Assembly (NCBI GenBank): GCA_018829205.1
Contig: JAHJUE010000010.1
Coordinates: 124,001-188,000, forward strand
DNA length: 64,000 nt
Origin: Bacteroidota bacterium
GTDB lineage: Bacteria; Bacteroidota; Ignavibacteria; Ignavibacteriales; Melioribacteraceae
Reading direction: 5' to 3'
Below are positions 2,693 to 45,350 of the stretch, piece after piece. Each line of letters opens with the position of its first letter. Position 1 is the stretch's first letter. A model generated the notes under the pieces. The model worked only from the letters and a program-made list of their open reading frames with translations, was not told where the DNA came from and ran no database searches. The translations under genes were made by a program, and so were the position numbers.

Positions 2693-3451
2693 ATGAAAAT
2701 TTACGATTCCCTACAACAAGTCATTAATCTTAAAGGCGCGGCTTATCTTGTATTAATTGATCCGGATAAAACTGAAGAAATTAAACTTGGTAAGTTTGTT
2801 AGTTTCTGCGAAAAAAACGGCGTTGACGGATTCCTAATCGGCGGAAGCTTATTAACAAACGGAGATCTGTCAGGCACAATAAATATTGTAAAAAAGAATT
2901 CATCTCTCCCCGTAATAATATTCCCCGGAGCAGTAAACCAGGTAGTCCCTAACGCAGACGCAATACTTTTTATATCTTTAATAAGCGGAAGGAACGCCGA
3001 GCAATTGATAGGCAAACATGTTTTCGCAGCTCCGATAATAAAAAAATATAATATCGAACCAATCTCAACCGGATATATTTTAGTCGAATCGGGAAATGTA
3101 ACTACCGCCGGGTATATGAGCGGAAGCATACCTGTCCCGAGAAACAAACCTGAGATTGCGGCTTCTACCGCTTTAGCCGCCGAATATCTGGGAATGAAAT
3201 TAATTTATCTTGAAGCAGGTTCCGGAGCTGATATTTCGGTTCCCGAAGAAATGATAAAACTTGTCACGGAAACTTGTTCTGTCCCCGTGATTGTAGGGGG
3301 CGGAATTAAAGACGCGGATACGGCGCGTTCAAAAGTAAAAGCCGGCGCGAAAATAATTGTTACCGGAAATTATTTTGAGAATCAGAACAACTGGGAAAAA
3401 ATAAAAGAATTCGCTCAGGCGGTTCATATTAAAGAATCCATAAAAGTTTAA
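2693..3451 (+). CDS. Geranylgeranylglyceryl phosphate synthase family protein (PcrB/GGGPS)
   Basis: A TIM-barrel prenyltransferase that joins a polyprenyl diphosphate to glycerol-1-phosphate to form an ether-lipid precursor. The sequence shows the family's opening LIDPDK (about 22-27), the GGS motif (about 50), YLEAGSGA (about 173-180) and the phosphate-binding run GGGIKDADTA followed by ADKIIVTGN-like ending residues. The length (252) fits bacterial group II enzymes known from Bacteroidetes relatives. Substrate chain length cannot be read from sequence alone. It is followed by a strong hairpin and then gmhA. Confidence 0.9.
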   Translation: MKIYDSLQQVINLKGAAYLVLIDPDKTEEIKLGKFVSFCEKNGVDGFLIGGSLLTNGDLSGTINIVKKNSSLPVIIFPGAVNQVVPNADAILFISLISGRNAEQLIGKHVFAAPIIKKYNIEPISTGYILVESGNVTTAGYMSGSIPVPRNKPEIAASTALAAEYLGMKLIYLEAGSGADISVPEEMIKLVTETCSVPVIVGGGIKDADTARSKVKAGAKIIVTGNYFENQNNWEKIKEFAQAVHIKESIKV

Positions 3452-3456
3452 TAAAC

Positions 3457-3489
3457 AAAAGCCCAACTTCTCCAAGAAGTTGGGCTTTT
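3457..3489. terminator. Terminator-like hairpin, copy 1 of a dispersed family
   Basis: A perfect 15-base stem, AAAAGCCCAACTTCT against AGAAGTTGGGCTTTT, with a three-base CCA loop, six bases after the GGGP synthase stop. The A-run and T-run arms make it work as an intrinsic terminator on either strand. Near-identical hairpins occur at 4086, 4208 and 4817. Confidence 0.85.
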
Positions 3490-3499
3490 ATGAGGACTC

Positions 3500-4081
3500 A
3501 TGAACGCACAAGAATTTGTCTCCAATTCACTAAGAGAAAGCTCCGAAGTAAAATTACTTATTGAAAAAGAATGTTCGGCAGATATTATTAAATCAATCGG
3601 AATATTAGTCGATGCTTTTAAAAACGGGAAAAAACTTCTGCTTTGCGGAAACGGCGGCAGCGCCGCTGATAGTCAGCATATTGCCGCGGAATTTATGATC
3701 CGTTTAAGTCATGATCTTGATAGACCCGCGATTCCCGCAATTGCTTTAACAACCGATACATCAAATTTAACAGCCGGCGGTAATGATATCGGTTATGAAA
3801 ATGTATTTGCCCGCAATGTAGAAGGGCTTGGAAATGAAGGGGATGTTTTAATCGCTATATCAACAAGCGGAAACTCGGCTAACGTAATAAAAGCAGTGGA
3901 AAAAGCGAAAAGCAAGAACATGAAAGTAATAGGTTTTCTCGGAGGAAACGGAGGAAAATTAAAACATATTTCAGATGTCGCGATTGTTATTCCCTCTCAA
4001 AGCACACAAAGAATTCAGGAAGGACACATAACCGTTGCTCATATAATCTGCGAAGCGGTTGAGAGAAGTTTGTATTCATAA
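3500..4081 (+). CDS. gmhA: D-sedoheptulose 7-phosphate isomerase
   Basis: A cytosolic SIS-domain isomerase that converts sedoheptulose 7-phosphate to D-glycero-D-manno-heptose 7-phosphate for lipopolysaccharide core synthesis. The sequence shows the phosphate-binding LLCGNGGSAADSQHIAAEF (about 47-65), STSGNSANV (about 121) and the C-terminal QEGHITVAHIICE helix with the conserved histidines. The length (193) is typical. It lies between two copies of a terminator-like hairpin, so it is probably transcribed alone. No other heptose genes are nearby. Confidence 0.93.
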   Translation: MNAQEFVSNSLRESSEVKLLIEKECSADIIKSIGILVDAFKNGKKLLLCGNGGSAADSQHIAAEFMIRLSHDLDRPAIPAIALTTDTSNLTAGGNDIGYENVFARNVEGLGNEGDVLIAISTSGNSANVIKAVEKAKSKNMKVIGFLGGNGGKLKHISDVAIVIPSQSTQRIQEGHITVAHIICEAVERSLYS

Positions 4082-4085
4082 AGCA

Positions 4086-4119
4086 AAAAGTCCGACTTAT
4101 TTAAGAAGTCGGGCTTTTG
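4086..4119. terminator. Terminator-like hairpin, copy 2
   Basis: AAAAGTCCGACTT pairs with AAGTCGGGCTTTT apart from one wobble pair. It starts five bases after the gmhA stop and has the same design as the hairpins at 3457, 4208 and 4817. Confidence 0.8.
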
Positions 4120-4207
4120 AAATATTAGCGAGACCTGTGAAAACGAAACTCGCGTCAATAGTTGGGTTTAGCGGAAATATACACAGTGTAAAATTTATGA
4201 AACTAAG

Positions 4208-4240
4208 AAAAGCCCGACTTTTTCAAAAAGTTGGGCTTTT
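4208..4240. repeat. Terminator-like hairpin, copy 3, at the left side of the RAYT gene
   Basis: AAAAGCCCGACTTTTT pairs with AAAAAGTTGGGCTTTT with one wobble pair. It ends 16 bases before the transposase start codon, whereas a plain terminator would normally follow a gene. With the copy at 4817 it brackets the transposase gene. Confidence 0.75.
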
Positions 4241-4256
4241 AAGTTTTGGAGCATAA

Positions 4257-4814
4257 ATGCCTTACCGAAAACCCGCATACAAAAATCATTATTATCATGT
4301 ATATAATAGGGGCAATAATTATGAACCGATTTTCTACAACCAGCAAAATTATCACTTCTTTTTAAGAAGACTTCTTCTTTACTTTGAAAATAAAATCAAC
4401 CTTGTCGCATATTGTTTAATGCCGAATCATTATCATTTATTATTGGAAATTTTGGAAGATGATTTTTTACAGAAAGCCATGCAGAAATTTTCTACTAGTT
4501 ATACTAAAGCAATTAACAAAGAACAGAATAGAGTTGGTCATTTATTTCAGGGCAGGTACAAATCTAAACTAGTTCCTGACAATAACTACCTGCTCCATTT
4601 ATCTAGATATATTCATTTAAATCCGGTAAAAGCTGGATTAGTTCAAAATCCTCAAGACTGGTTTTTTTCTAGCTATCTGGATTTTATTAACATAAGAAAA
4701 AGCGAATTTCTAAACTTGGAGATTATAAGTTCACAAATTCAAGATTATCGGTATTTTGTAATGAGTTTCCAAGAAGAGCAGAATTATTATTTAAAAGACT
4801 TGTTGTTTGATTGA
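4257..4814 (+). CDS. REP-associated tyrosine transposase (RAYT, Y1 family)
   Basis: A single-strand DNA nickase/transposase of the IS200-like Y1 superfamily. It has the HUH-type metal site in MPNHYHLLL (H58, H60), a downstream tyrosine helix (SYTKAINKEQNRVGHLFQGRYKS, with the candidate nucleophile in SYTK at about 82) and the family ending YIHLNPVKAGLV. The length (185) is that of stand-alone RAYTs. Such proteins act on small palindromic REP elements. Here near-identical hairpins sit 16 bases upstream and 2 bases downstream, and related hairpins end the neighbouring genes. It looks intact, and no target-site duplication is obvious. Confidence 0.9.
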   Translation: MPYRKPAYKNHYYHVYNRGNNYEPIFYNQQNYHFFLRRLLLYFENKINLVAYCLMPNHYHLLLEILEDDFLQKAMQKFSTSYTKAINKEQNRVGHLFQGRYKSKLVPDNNYLLHLSRYIHLNPVKAGLVQNPQDWFFSSYLDFINIRKSEFLNLEIISSQIQDYRYFVMSFQEEQNYYLKDLLFD

Positions 4815-4816
4815 CA

Positions 4817-4851
4817 AAAAAGCCCAACTTCTTTAAGAAGTTGGGCTTTTT
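4817..4851. repeat. Terminator-like hairpin, copy 4, at the right side of the RAYT gene
   Basis: A perfect 17-base stem, AAAAAGCCCAACTTCTT against AAGAAGTTGGGCTTTTT, with a one-base centre. It begins two bases after the RAYT stop codon. Its arms match copy 1 (3457-3489) almost exactly. Confidence 0.85.
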
Positions 4852-4980: not shown

Positions 4981-7239
4981 ATGACTGCAAATTTAGATAT
5001 GATTCAGAGAGTTTATGACGGACTGAAAGACAAGCATGAGAAAATCAGAGCTGTTTTAGGCAGACCATTAACTCTAACCGAAAAAATTCTTTACTCCCAT
5101 TTATGGGATGAAGTTTCACGCGAATTTAAACGCGCAAAAGATTACGTTGATTTGGCGCCCGACCGTGTTGCAATGCAGGACGCAACAGCACAAATGGCTA
5201 TGCTTCAGTTTATTCATTCGGGAAGAAAAAAAGCCGCCGTGCCTTCTACAATTCATTGCGATCACTTAATTCAAGCTCAAATTGGCGCAAAGGAAGATTT
5301 AGCAAGAGCAAACGATGAGAATGATGAAGTTTATAAATTTATGGAAACCGCCGGAGCTAAATACGGTGTTGGTTTCTGGAAACCGGGCGCGGGTATTATT
5401 CATCAGGTAGTTCTTGAAAATTACGCATTCCCCGGCGGATTGATGATCGGATCCGATTCACATACTCCTAATGCGGGGGGACTTGGAATGATTGCCGTCG
5501 GCGTTGGCGGAGCCGATGTTGTTGATGTTATGTCGGGTATGGCATGGGAATTAAAATGGCCGAAAATTATCGGAGTTAAATTAACCGGAAAACTTAACGG
5601 CTGGACATCTCCAAAAGATGTAATATTAAAACTTGCAGGCATACTAACTGTTAAAGGCGGAACCGGAGCTATAGTTGAATATTTCGGCGACGGAACCAAT
5701 TCAATTTCATGCACGGGTAAAGCTACAATTTGTAATATGGGTGCCGAAATTGGCGCTACTACTTCCCTATTCGCTTATGATGATAGAATGGCCGGATATT
5801 TAAAAAGCACAGATAGAAGCGATGTGGCCGATCTTGCGGATAAACATGCCGAATATTTAAAAGCAGACGATGAAGTGATTTCTGATCCGGTAAAATATTA
5901 TGATCAAGTTATTGAAATAAATCTGAACGAATTGGAGCCGCACCTAAATGGTCCTTTTACACCTGACAGAGCATGGCCTGTATCTCAAATGAAGGAAGCC
6001 GTAAAATCAGAAGGGTTCCCGGATAATATAAGCGTTTCTTTAATCGGAAGTTGTACTAACTCCAGTTATGAAGATATTGACCGCGCGGCAAATATTGCAA
6101 AACAGGCTTTATCAAAAGGACTTAAAGCAAAATCGCAGTTTACAATTACTCCCGGCAGCGAACAGGTACGCGCTACAATTGAAAGAGACGGTCAATTAAA
6201 GACTCTTACAGATTTCGGAGGTGTTGTTTTAGCTAACGCCTGCGGTCCTTGTATCGGCATGTGGAATAGAATGGATAATCCGAGCGGCGAAAGAAATACA
6301 ATTGTTACTTCTTTTAACAGAAACTTCGCTAAAAGAAATGACGGCAATCCGAATACCTTAGCATTTGTCGCGAGCCCCGAAATTACAACCGCGCTCGCTA
6401 TTTCAGGCAGTTTGTCATTTAATCCGGTTACCGACGAATTAGAAAACGAAAAAGGCGAAAAAGTTAAATTGGACGATCCGCACGGACTTGAACTTCCTGA
6501 AAAAGGTTTTGAAAAAGATCTTGAAGGTTTTCTCGCACCGCCTGAAGACGGTTCAAATGTGGATGTTATAATATCACCCGATAGTAAACGTCTGCAGTTC
6601 CTCGAAAAATTCTCTCCGTGGGATGGAAAAGATTATCTGGATTTGCCTGTATTGCTCAAAGCAAAAGGTAAATGCACTACGGATCATATTTCAATGGCAG
6701 GTCCATGGTTGCGTTTCAGAGGCCATCTTGACAACCTGTCCGATAATATGTTTCTCGGCGCAATAAACGCTTATAACGATAAACCCGGCGACGTAAAAAA
6801 TCAATTAACCGGTCAATATCAGCTCCCCCATCAAGTAGCTAGAGATTATAAAAAGAATGAAATTAACTGGGTGGTTGTAGGCGATGAAAACTACGGCGAA
6901 GGTTCAAGCCGTGAACACGCCGCTATGGAACCTAGGTTTCTCGGAGGTAAGGTTATCATAACAAAAAGCTTCGCGCGTATTCATGAAACTAATTTAAAGA
7001 AACAAGGAATGCTTCCGCTTACATTCGACAATCCTTCCGATTATGATAAAATTCTTGAGGATGACAGAATAAGCATTGTAGACTTAAAAGATTTCGCCGA
7101 AGACAAACAATTTATATGCGTAATAAAACATAAAGACGGTTCAACGGAAGAAATAAAATTAAACCATACTTTTAATAATGCGCAGATTGAATGGTTTAAA
7201 GCCGGAAGCGCATTAAATTTAATCGCTAAACTGCAGTAA
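4981..7239 (+). CDS. acnA: Aconitate hydratase (mitochondrial type)
   Basis: A TCA-cycle [4Fe-4S] enzyme that interconverts citrate and isocitrate. The three cluster cysteines are C358 (GSCTNSS) and C421/C424 (NACGPCIG). Their 63- and 3-residue spacing is that of mitochondrial aconitase. The C-terminal swivel domain carries [15 protein letters not shown]. The length from this start is 752 residues. I chose the ATG at 4981 because AAAGGATGG lies just before it and the protein start then fits the family; an upstream GTG at 4933 gives a non-conserved extension. It follows hairpin copy 4 and ends at a strong terminator, so it is likely monocistronic. Confidence 0.95.
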
Positions 7240-16421: not shown

Positions 16422-17735
16422 ATGAAGACATTAAAACAAACAGCCGCAATTTTTTTCGGATTAATAATATTTTCGTCTGCTGTATCTGCGCAGTGGGTTA
16501 ACAAATCAATTGAATTTCCTGATGAAGTAATAGCTTGGTCAATAGACGCTGTTGACAGTTTAAATGCGATTGTTTCATTTAGCCAATTTATTTATAAAAC
16601 AGAAAATGGCGGAGAATCATGGGAATTAATATCACTTAATCCCGATATTTATGAAAGTGCTCAAGATATATCGATGATAGACGCTGATAACTTCTGGGTT
16701 GGAACTGATCACGGCAGAATTTATAAATTAACCAACGCATCGCAAATCGGTACACTGCAATATAATGATACTTCCAAAACAAAATTTATAAATTATATTG
16801 AAATGTTCGACTTGAATAACGGTATTGCAATGGGAGATGCGGATCAATTTAGCGAAGGAATTCCGGTTTTTCTAAAAACAACCGACGGAGGGTTAAACTG
16901 GGTAAGCACAACAGATACAGCAATAGGCGGCTGGTCGGGTGACATTTGGAGGAGAATGGATTTTGTTGATGAAAACCTGGGTTACTTTTATGAATCAGGT
17001 AATAGCCCGCAGAAATTATATAAGACTACAAACGGCGGATTGAATTGGAATGAAACGAACTTCACAAAATTTCCTATGATCCTTAAATTTTATGATATGA
17101 ATTTCGGATTAATATATAGCCCCAATTTCGCCGATTCAACCAAGGAAATTAATAGAACAACCGACGGCGGTTTAACATGGGAATCATTTACTGTTAGCAT
17201 GACGGGCTGGGGTAATGATATTGAATTTGTCCGCGGAGATCCTTCAAAAGTCTGGTTTACGGATTGGCTGGGTCTGTATTTCAGCAGCGACAGCGGAAAA
17301 ACATGGACTGAAGAAAAACTATCAGACAGTGAGCTTAAAGGAAGAGATATTGTTTTTACCGATGACAATTCCGGATGGTTAATATGCGACAACGGAAAAA
17401 TATATAGAACAACAAATACTGAACCGGGCGTTACTGCCTTAGAAACCGAAAAAGTGATTGGCTCTTCATACAAACTTATGCAGAACTACCCGAATCCTTT
17501 TAACCCGGAAACTACAATTAATTATCAGCTGCCTTTTTCTTCTTATGTTACGTTAAAAGTTTATGATGCATTAGGGAAAGAAATCACGACACTGGTAAAT
17601 GAATTTAAGACTGCCGGAGAATATCAGATAAAATTTAGAAGCAGCATAAGCTCCGGAATATCAAGCGGAGTATATTTTTACAGACTTAAGACAAACGATT
17701 TTATTGAAATAAAGAAAATGCTTTTGTTGAAATAA
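16422..17735 (+). CDS. Secreted BNR/YCF48-like repeat protein with T9SS sorting domain
   Basis: 437 residues. After a signal peptide (ending VSAQW) it contains repeated units of the type TTDGGLNWVST, TTNGGLNWNET, TTDGGLTWESF and SSDSGKTWTEE, the Asp-box/BNR pattern of beta-propellers such as YCF48 and sialidase-like proteins. The C-terminal type A sorting domain starts at YKLMQNYPNPFNPETT and ends EIKKMLLLK. The enzymatic role is unknown; structural or adhesive functions are possible. It runs tail to tail with ypdA, seven bases apart. Confidence 0.8.
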   Translation: MKTLKQTAAIFFGLIIFSSAVSAQWVNKSIEFPDEVIAWSIDAVDSLNAIVSFSQFIYKTENGGESWELISLNPDIYESAQDISMIDADNFWVGTDHGRIYKLTNASQIGTLQYNDTSKTKFINYIEMFDLNNGIAMGDADQFSEGIPVFLKTTDGGLNWVSTTDTAIGGWSGDIWRRMDFVDENLGYFYESGNSPQKLYKTTNGGLNWNETNFTKFPMILKFYDMNFGLIYSPNFADSTKEINRTTDGGLTWESFTVSMTGWGNDIEFVRGDPSKVWFTDWLGLYFSSDSGKTWTEEKLSDSELKGRDIVFTDDNSGWLICDNGKIYRTTNTEPGVTALETEKVIGSSYKLMQNYPNPFNPETTINYQLPFSSYVTLKVYDALGKEITTLVNEFKTAGEYQIKFRSSISSGISSGVYFYRLKTNDFIEIKKMLLLK

Positions 17736-17742
17736 TAGCATA

Positions 17743-18711
17743 TTATTTGTCAGCAAGCTGTTCAATAATTACATCGGCATGATAACGGGAATTTTCAATA
17801 AACCATTTTCCCGTCTTCATTCCCCCGCACACTACTCCGGCAAGGTATATACCTTTTACATTTGTCTCAAAGGTATTCTCGTCATACTGAGGCGTTTGCG
17901 TAATTTTTCCTTTAATCTGAACCCCGGCCCTTTTTAGAAAATCAAAATCGGGATGATAACCTGTCATCGCCAGAACAAAATCATTTTCTATTGTGATTTT
18001 ACCTTGGGGTGTTTTTACGTCAATTTCTTTTTCTCTAATTTCAATTACCCTGCTATTAAAATAAGCCTTGATCCTTCCCTCTTCAATCCTGTTATTAATA
18101 TCCGGGCGCACCCAGTATTTAACATTTTTATCTACGCTGTCTTTTTTTAAAATCATTGTTACGTCGGCTCCGTAACGGTAAGTCTCAAGCGCTACATCAA
18201 CTCCGCTGTTGCCTCCTCCTATTACCGCAATTTTCTGTCCGGCGTACGGATGAGGTTCATCATAATAATGTTTTACTTTTGGCAAATCTTCGCCGGGAAT
18301 TCTCATCAAATTTTCCTTATCAAAAAAACCGGTTGAGATTATAACGTTTGAGGTTTCATAATTCCCTTTTTCCGTTTCAACTTTAAACTCGTTTTTCTTC
18401 CCTGTTATATTTTTCACAGCTTCGTAAAGATTTACATTTAACTTCCATGAAGTTTTGACGCGCCTGTAATACTCAAGCGATTCTCTGCGTGTGGGTTTTA
18501 CACCGTGAGATATAAAGGGGACATCCCCAATTTCAAGTCTTTCCGACGTTGAAAAGAATGTCATATTCGTAGGATAATGAAAAAGAGAATTTACAAGGCA
18601 TCCCTTTTCGATTATAAGATATTTTAATTTTCTTTTAGCCGCTGCGATTCCGCAAGCCAGGCCTATTGGTCCTGCGCCGATTATAATTACGTCGTATTTA
18701 ATTTGTTTCAT
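17743..18711 (-). CDS. ypdA: YpdA-family bacillithiol disulfide reductase
   Basis: An FAD/NAD(P)H flavoprotein of 322 residues. It has the FAD motif IIIGAGPIGLACGIAA (about 9-24), the family-specific NMTFFSTSERLEIG (about 49-62) and a second Rossmann motif VIGGGNSGVDVAL (about 164). YpdA proteins reduce bacillithiol disulfide, which implies that this organism makes bacillithiol. No biosynthesis genes are in the window. It lies head to tail, 17 bases after the VirK-like gene on the same strand, so the two may be co-transcribed. Confidence 0.88.
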   Translation of the reverse strand: MKQIKYDVIIIGAGPIGLACGIAAAKRKLKYLIIEKGCLVNSLFHYPTNMTFFSTSERLEIGDVPFISHGVKPTRRESLEYYRRVKTSWKLNVNLYEAVKNITGKKNEFKVETEKGNYETSNVIISTGFFDKENLMRIPGEDLPKVKHYYDEPHPYAGQKIAVIGGGNSGVDVALETYRYGADVTMILKKDSVDKNVKYWVRPDINNRIEEGRIKAYFNSRVIEIREKEIDVKTPQGKITIENDFVLAMTGYHPDFDFLKRAGVQIKGKITQTPQYDENTFETNVKGIYLAGVVCGGMKTGKWFIENSRYHADVIIEQLADK

Positions 18712-33278: not shown

Positions 33279-33319
33279 TGTGGTATATCTTTACCACACT
33301 GTGGTAAAGATATACCACA
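33279..33319. promoter_or_regulatory. Nested perfect palindrome upstream of the Xre-ImmA operon
   Basis: TGTGGTATATCTTTACCACA is followed, after one C, by its exact reverse complement. Each arm is itself an interrupted palindrome (TGTGGTA and TACCACA). The 41-base structure lies about 110 bases before the Xre gene. It could be a double operator for the Xre protein, or a transcription stop for the integrase remnant, although it has no T-tract. Confidence 0.55.
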
Positions 33320-44442: not shown

Positions 44443-45006
44443 ATGAGCAGAAGAGGGCGAAATAATTTAACTCAAGAAAGCTTTTACTTTGTTACTACAA
44501 CAATTTTAAACTTCGTAAAAGTTTTTGAAGATGAAGATTGTTGTTCTGCTTTAATAAGCAACATCAAACACTATCAAAATAAATACAATTTTACTGTACT
44601 TGCATATGTAATAATGCCAGCCCACTTCCATTGGATTGTTTTAACAGATAATAAAAAGGGAACTATTTCGGATATAATGCGTGATGTAAAAAAATACAGT
44701 GCTTGGGAAATACTTGATATACTTGCGAATAAAGAGAAACAAGAATTACTGGAACATTTCATCGAAGGAGCTAAAGACTTCCCTACTCATAAAAGGAAAC
44801 TGTGGATGCACCGCTTTGATGATGAAGTAATAAGTCCCGCCATGGCGGGATGGGTAAAATTAAATTACATTCACAAAAACCCGGTGAAAGCCAGATTGAT
44901 TTCAAAAGAAGAAGATTACAAATATTCCAGTGCCCGAAACTATATAAACCAAGATCATTCTATACTGTTTGTTGATACAGAATTTGTTGGCGTGGAAATA
45001 ACCTAA
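44443..45006 (+). CDS. REP-associated tyrosine transposase (RAYT), second copy
   Basis: 187 residues, distantly related to the RAYT at 4257. The HUH-type motif is MPAHFHWIV (about 57-65). The downstream region has a MRDVKKYSAWEIL helix with the candidate tyrosine, then DDEVI and YIHKNPVKARLISKEEDYKYSSARNY, the family ending. A perfect 16-base palindrome (44835-44850) lies in frame and encodes SPAMAG where relatives have a few other residues. It sits between two copies of ACTGAGTGGTCA and near the 36-base hairpin repeat. It appears intact. Confidence 0.88.
   Translation: MSRRGRNNLTQESFYFVTTTILNFVKVFEDEDCCSALISNIKHYQNKYNFTVLAYVIMPAHFHWIVLTDNKKGTISDIMRDVKKYSAWEILDILANKEKQELLEHFIEGAKDFPTHKRKLWMHRFDDEVISPAMAGWVKLNYIHKNPVKARLISKEEDYKYSSARNYINQDHSILFVDTEFVGVEIT
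44835..44850. repeat. Perfect GC palindrome inside the second RAYT gene
   Basis: TCCCGCCATGGCGGGA is its own reverse complement. It is in frame and translates to SPAMAG. It resembles in kind the palindromes inside tex. Confidence 0.7.
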
Positions 45007-45350
45007 GCTTTTTCCGTCACTGAGTGGTCAGTGACGGCTGTGCAAGCCCTAATTTTTCTGTAAATATGGTAGATGCTATTGCTATTCCAGGGTTTAAACT
45101 ATCGCCTGCTTCTACGAGCATTACTACTAAATAACCTGAACGTTGTGGAACATAACTATTAATTTTCCTATTGATGTTATTCTAATTGGCTGGCACGGTT
45201 TGCAACTACTCGAAGGTGGCGATTTAGAAGCACTTCACTGTCAATAAACCACAAACTTTGATAAATGCACAAAGCTTGGTTTAACCACTGATTCATCACT
45301 TTTGGGTAGCTGCAGTGCTTCTTTAAGGTCTTAAAATTATTTTAGTTTTT
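45007..45350. other. Intergenic region with a possible decayed coding segment
   Basis: After the hairpin at 45014 the + strand holds no gene. On the minus strand, roughly 45180 down to 45017, an open stretch of about 54 codons reads YVPQRSGYLVVMLVEAG and DSLNPGIAIASTIFTEKLG. It has no credible start and ends in the hairpin. It may be a gene remnant, but I cannot name its family. Confidence 0.35.
45014..45037. repeat. Hairpin and 12-base repeat after the second RAYT
   Basis: CCGTCACTGA and TCAGTGACGG form a perfect 10-base stem with a GTGG loop, eight bases after the stop codon. It includes the second copy of ACTGAGTGGTCA (45019-45030). Confidence 0.7.

Follow-up and report, generated by a model that had tools for sequence, protein, structure and literature searches.

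The gene at positions 4257 to 4814 is a RAYT-type Y1/HUH transposase gene, and its cognate repeat is a sharply delimited 33-nt palindrome which lacks the GTAG tag of classical REP elements. The stretch of DNA analysed, termed the window, comprises 64,000 nt of the genome of a Bacteroidota bacterium. The preferred reading, held at a probability of about 0.75, is that a single-strand transposase gene of the RAYT type is bracketed by its own cognate palindromes, with four more copies, two of them next to gmhA and the other two at distant genomic places. The pairing follows from the excess of such brackets around homologous genes, from the way in which the hairpin sequence tracks the protein sequence, and from four hairpin types that are enriched by RAYT group. 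Transcription termination by the hairpins would, judging from the sequence, be a plausible local twist on this RAYT-repeat pair.

The RAYT locus and its hairpins

The features of the locus are as follows.

2693-3451: GGGP synthase gene, 5' neighbour of HP1
3457-3489, no strand: HP1, a 33-nt hairpin in the gap between the GGGP synthase gene and gmhA, with a 15 bp stem, a 3-nt loop and an A4/T4 foot
3500-4081: gmhA, between HP1 and HP2
4086-4118, no strand: HP2, a weaker hairpin 3' of gmhA, with 13 bp including one G-T pair and a 7-nt loop
4208-4240, no strand: HP3, a 33-nt hairpin 16 nt 5' of the RAYT start codon, with 15 bp including one G-T pair and a 3-nt loop
4257-4814, plus strand: RAYT-type Y1 transposase gene of 185 aa, with motifs NHYH, FQ and YIHLNP (Pfam Y1_Tnp, 1.8e-10)
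4817-4851, no strand: HP4, a hairpin 2 nt past the RAYT stop codon, with a 16 bp stem and a 3-nt loop; its 33-nt core is 4818-4850
From an ATG at 4981: aconitase-type ORF, 3' of the RAYT gene, recognised by sequence alone

The preliminary description had placed four nearly identical hairpins within 1.4 kb, among the GGGP synthase, gmhA and RAYT genes. All four are present at these positions and the genes stand in the order given there; near identity is too strong a term for HP2, which is weaker and less alike. The element itself is a near-perfect hairpin of 33 nt with a 15 bp stem and a 3-nt loop, free of the GTAG tag, and the predicted RNA folding energies of HP1 to HP4 lie between -17.2 and -23.0 kcal/mol (z between -4.6 and -6.3). 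A strict form of the hairpin pattern, AAGCCCRACTTN{0,14}AAGTYGGGCTT, under which HP2 with its one mismatch is not counted, matches three times within the window and in none of 100 dinucleotide shuffles. The search of the whole genome (4.59 Mb), which the preliminary description had proposed, returns five places, three of them in the 1.4-kb RAYT locus, and none for the reversed pattern as a control. The hairpin thus also occurs outside the locus, at two further strict places, both between convergent ORFs. Such clustering is not readily reproduced by chance: in 200,000 trials with six random points, three never fell together in a span of 1.4 kb. Elsewhere in the window, positions 33279-33319 form a 41-nt palindrome (stem of 19 bp, TGTGGTATATCTTTACCACA..); 20 nt taken from it have no exact match among 273 fetched loci.

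The protein exceeds the Pfam cut-off for Y1_Tnp, the sole domain found in its 185 aa. Against NCBIfam REP_Tyr_transpos it scores 78.7 bits (curated cut-off 80; E 4e-22), and its best match among solved structures is TnpArep, PDB 4er8 (3.2e-05). The closer homologs are 175-206 aa long; by simple text match NHYH occurs in 84 and Y-IHLNP in 72 of 86, and FQ in 65 of 86, the text match having partly missed the rest. The genome has one copy of this RAYT. Two other Y1 genes differ from it and have other hairpins nearby. One is an ORF at 44443-45006 of the window, with its own hairpin CCGTCACTGA..TCAGTGACGG directly 3' at 45014-45037. The other, in locus L007 (G000:C33:182785-186120), is bracketed by the hairpin type GTCTGATTG..CAATCAGAC at positions 1197-1220, 1282-1309 and 1917-1938, where the upstream gene ends within one copy and the transposase frame within another.

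Hairpin brackets around homologous genes

Homologs were taken from the order, in which 43 of 97 genomes (the present genome among them) gave a match and at most 30 loci were fetched, and from named genomes, of whose 561 matches the best 80 were kept; the latter represent Cyanobacteria, Chloroflexi, Poribacteria, Desulfobacterales and others. This provided 107 loci, 101 of which have enough flanking sequence; L074, from the same contig as L018, and six loci with short flanks were left out. A bracket was scored when a stem of 12 bp or longer lay in the 200 nt upstream or the 230 nt downstream of the gene, and 200-nt windows from the same loci served as controls.

A hairpin is found upstream of 58, downstream of 68, on both sides of 52 and on either side of 74 of the 101 homologs, compared to 20 of the 589 control windows; 27 of the 101 have no flanking hairpin by this measure. 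The bracketing of the RAYT gene proposed in the preliminary description, by HP3 and HP4, is seen here and, on both sides, in 52/101 homologs. The commonest geometry among the brackets is again a 15 bp stem with a 3-nt loop. The two brackets of one locus differ on average at 1.1 of 15 stem positions, compared to 5.5 after permutation (46 loci), and the distance between proteins correlates with the distance between their hairpins (r 0.66 for 70 loci; maximum of 2000 permutations 0.30). Hairpin and protein thus vary together. Conservation falls at the edge of the 33-nt element, and across phyla the brackets consist of that element only.

An AGA/TCT foot is present in 77 of 95 hairpins (loci L075-L153). 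The A/T foot is local to the present lineage, in which the usual AGA/TCT mostly reads AAAA/TTTT. The GTAG/GTGG tag occurs in 2 of 115 hairpins, compared to 6 in the shifted background.

Within the order, the RAYTs of genomes G071 and G087 have hairpins on both sides, and those of G041 and G002 downstream only. The RAYT of G043 (53% identity) has no adjoining hairpin of the GCCCRACTT type; in G036 the contig ends too soon for the upstream bracket to be read, and in G052 a fragment of a RAYT at the end of a contig lies about 40 nt from a hairpin. The RAYT in locus L018 (G087; 1501-2064) contains one in-frame TAA, while both of its brackets are kept and eight copies of the type occur in that genome.

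Hairpin type and RAYT type across genomes

The hairpin and the RAYT go together, as is supported by their distribution. The GCCCRACTT hairpin occurs in 12 of the 97 genomes of the order. When a carrier is defined as a genome with a RAYT of at least 53% identity, or with the fragments of G052, the hairpin is present in 6 of 8 carriers and in 6 of 89 others (P 2e-5, kinship uncorrected); when only RAYTs seen beside a GCCCRACTT hairpin are counted, the figures are 5/5 and 7/92 (P 1e-5, kinship likewise uncorrected). These two counts are relied upon because a third, 6/6 versus 6/91, depended on a definition made after the hairpins had been seen, which admitted G043 at 53% and excluded G071 and G087 at 57-60%; it was set aside. 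Carriers hold 5-14 copies of the hairpin, compared to 1-4 in each of the six exception genomes, four of which are congeneric with a carrier. The two carriers without GCCCRACTT, G071 and G087, have another hairpin type, ACCCAATTTC, beside the RAYT, with 5 and 8 copies respectively; this type has 1-2 copies in six other genomes, including the present one, and two of these six belong to the genus of G087. The hairpin is thus neither lacking elsewhere (five strict places in this genome, 12/97 genomes) nor equally common in relatives without the RAYT (6/89, compared to 6/8 carriers).

A similar trend is reflected in 50 named genomes, hand-chosen by hairpin type, four of them without a core hairpin and none corrected for kinship. 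The two types compared there, GATCCCCGACTTCT and GAAACCCGGTTTCT, are cyanobacterial. At least three copies of GATCCCCGACTTCT are present in 17 of 18 genomes with a bracket within one mismatch of it, and in 3 of 28 others; among these three, L131 carries the type in another register and L084 has many copies of both types. At least one copy of GAAACCCGGTTTCT is found in 6/9 genomes of that type versus 0/37 others, and at least three copies in 3/9. Seventeen of the 18 cyanobacterial genomes of one type hold 6-83 copies, 83 being the largest exact count seen. The small dispersed repeats of Nostoc, reportedly described by Elhai in 2008, may overlap these cyanobacterial hairpin copies.

Relation to known systems

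The arrangement resembles the REPtron (Nunvar 2010, PMC2817692; Bertels 2011, PMC3116915), in which, according to the available text of these papers, a Y1/HUH gene is flanked by hairpins that also occur elsewhere in the genome, and repeat and transposase co-vary. It differs from the REPtron as described there in the lack of GTAG/GTGG, in its near-perfect palindrome, in its paired AGA/TCT or AAAA/TTTT foot and in its few copies; canonical REPs exceed 100 copies per genome, compared to five strict places here. The available text of Bertels 2011 (PMC3116915) also includes a RAYT of Nostoc punctiforme and its repeats.

RAYT-repeat pairs of an untagged kind are already known, because Di Nocera 2013 (PMC3733652), in its available text, describes RAYT-like genes (TIRYT, forming the TIRtron) flanked by untagged repeats, some of them wholly self-complementary and some forming repeat families of moderate size. 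The GGGGWSAS motif, reported there for most repeats though not all, is not seen in HP1 to HP4 when their sequences are read by eye, and the present hairpins, unlike the TIRtron repeats as described in that text, have a uniform 33-nt geometry over several phyla. An overlap of the present group with TIRtron families is possible, the comparison being with the available text of PMC3733652 apart from its supplementary lists.

Quentin 2018 (PMC6006769) characterises TnpA-Y1 subclass 2.1, in the text available, by the motifs NH[YF]H, FQ and Y[IV]HLNP and by a C-terminal HTH domain, and states that automatic and manual searches found no REP-like sequences near its genes. The present RAYT group shares these motifs, and its assignment to the subclass is by motifs alone. 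In contrast to the subclass as described in that text, hairpins here bracket the gene, and the HTH extension is lacking, Y1_Tnp standing alone in 185 aa. The automatic search would have missed the present hairpins because, as that text describes it, the GTAG/GTGG tag was required. If the motif-based assignment is right, the locus offers a clean target on which to test a RAYT group that was reported to have no repeat. Six hairpin sequences gave no match in the main text of open-licence papers.

The pair of a RAYT with an untagged, uniform repeat is real, and its use in termination may be reasonable. A wider proposal joins these elements, namely that a multi-phylum RAYT group with the 2.1 signature has a cognate tagless 33-nt palindrome, and that in the present lineage a change of foot to A4/T4 would turn this mobile repeat into ready-made two-way terminators at gene ends; as a whole this is tentative and rather doubtful.

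Gene ends and possible transcription termination

Sixty-seven hairpin places were considered. L221, a duplicate of L163 at the opposite end of one contig, and a second L201 copy with duplicated flanks were removed, and 12 of the remaining 65 were left out for want of two clear flanking ORFs or because of ORF overlap, leaving 53 classified copies. Between convergent genes lie 24 of the 53, compared to a background of 8.4% of intergenic positions in 20 hand-placed 20-kb stretches. The tabulation of distances to stop codons, also proposed in the preliminary description, places 38 of the 53 within 50 nt of a stop, compared to 31.7% in the same stretches. Six copies with a long flank shared by G041 and G018 are all between tandem genes, and 0/6 lie within 50 nt of a stop. 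Among the remaining copies, 20 of 32 with an A/T foot are convergent, versus 4 of 15 with another foot (P 0.03, uncorrected). It is a weak idea that placement at gene ends should be due to the A/T foot alone, as 10/15 copies with non-A/T feet also lie within 50 nt of a stop.

The T run of the window hairpins comprises 4-5 T followed by A or G, and several copies in other genomes have longer runs. A scan for the terminator consensus flags only HP2 of the four, on the minus strand, partly because it seeks T past the whole stem and the T run here is itself paired. The reading of the hairpin as a possible intrinsic terminator has partial support, from placement at gene ends above background and from stems that fold well, and is weakened by the short T-tracts and the flagging of HP2 alone. 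HP1 does not occupy a site at which a terminator would seem to be required, because 25 of 29 relatives keep the same gene pair in order without such a hairpin. With only five strict copies and HP2, any spread of terminators in this genome is small.

According to the preferred reading, a RAYT with its cognate palindromes, the enzyme may, by analogy with TnpA-REP, recognise the hairpin in single-stranded DNA, nick near its foot and occasionally seed a new copy. With an AAAA/TTTT foot, the GC-rich stem of a transcribed copy would run out into 4-5 U, so that such a copy might serve as a weak terminator or insulator in both directions, for the RAYT gene too. The copies retained near stop codons would then be the least harmful or the useful ones. 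The feet AGA/TCT, AAT/ATT and AAAA/TTTT form a natural series for asking if regulatory terminators can arise from mobile hairpins.

Site history and alternative explanations

Matches to gmhA occur in 55 other genomes, of which 29 loci were fetched. The GGGP synthase gene lies directly 5' of gmhA in 25 of these 29, with a gap of 6-619 nt, mostly below 100 nt, and the gap contains no stem of at least 10 bp in any of the 25 (a 7-bp stem of other sequence was seen by eye in L048). In the seven relatives in which the aconitase gene follows gmhA, the gap is 52-301 nt, compared to 902 nt here, and no RAYT was found in it. At this site, the relatives examined thus lack both HP1 and the RAYT. The comparison with related genomes for empty sites, suggested in the preliminary description, succeeded in showing 25 relatives without HP1; a base-exact empty site was out of reach, because the DNA of the relatives is too diverged.

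Among closer genomes, G041 has two copies inside mosaics (about 330-370 nt) whose sites are empty in G018; one site is also empty in G053, in which the other is unreadable. Pieces bearing hairpins have therefore moved. G018, which lacks a RAYT of this group, holds copies of the mosaic too. Dispersed mosaics of this size with a hairpin inside can be seen in L261 (G041:C89:37000-56500), at about 1032-1392 and 17518-17884. When 22 pairs of RAYT loci from Cyanobacteria were compared, in no case had one hairpin been cleanly gained or lost, and one 85-nt indel contains hairpin pieces.

The mosaics raise the hypothesis that an unrelated enzyme moves longer repeats of which the hairpin is one module, and that the RAYT locus simply happens to include such modules. 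Besides the two mosaic copies with their empty sites, several G041 and G018 copies with identical long flanks would agree with this; however, the long flank is confined to the G041/G018 genus among the copies examined (6 of 53 classified), and the brackets across phyla are the bare 33-nt element, which makes the hypothesis scarcely credible. It is very unlikely that the RAYT and its two hairpins form an autonomous unit which jumps whole, with the hairpins as its ends. IS200 has a terminator hairpin just upstream of the start codon of its Y1 transposase, and the present locus is alike to IS200/IS605 in having a hairpin shortly 5' of that codon. The missing RAYT between gmhA and aconitase in seven relatives, and the RAYT segment of G041, which is without a counterpart in G018 between flanks of 92-95% identity, are what such a unit would leave. 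Yet in place of several near-identical full copies the gene is present once, the two remaining Y1 genes being different and having other hairpins, and hairpins also occur away from the gene. Five RAYT loci of Nostoc share several kb of surroundings at about 88-90% identity, and a precise empty RAYT site in G018 had to be rejected, as the place is filled by other sequence.

Another explanation, judged unlikely, holds that the hairpins are ordinary intrinsic terminators of the lineage which share a sequence, so that the proximity of the RAYT is incidental. The fixed 33-nt geometry with its AGA/TCT foot outside this lineage, the link of hairpin type to RAYT type with brackets in 52/101 homologs, and the position of HP1 within a close gene pair all argue against it, in spite of the many copies near stops (38/53) or between convergent genes (24/53) and the longer T runs of several copies elsewhere. 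One pattern match does fit it: L183 in G041 is a common terminator that G053 has kept by descent and that survives in G018 in degenerate form. The set of pattern matches is therefore mixed, and the notion that every match is a REP copy was rejected. At a further site, shared by the congeners G041 and G018, the hairpin at 1501-1525 of L155 (G041) and of L165 (G018) stands in the same place, but its orientation to the flanking sequence is opposite in the two, as though the palindrome had been turned round.
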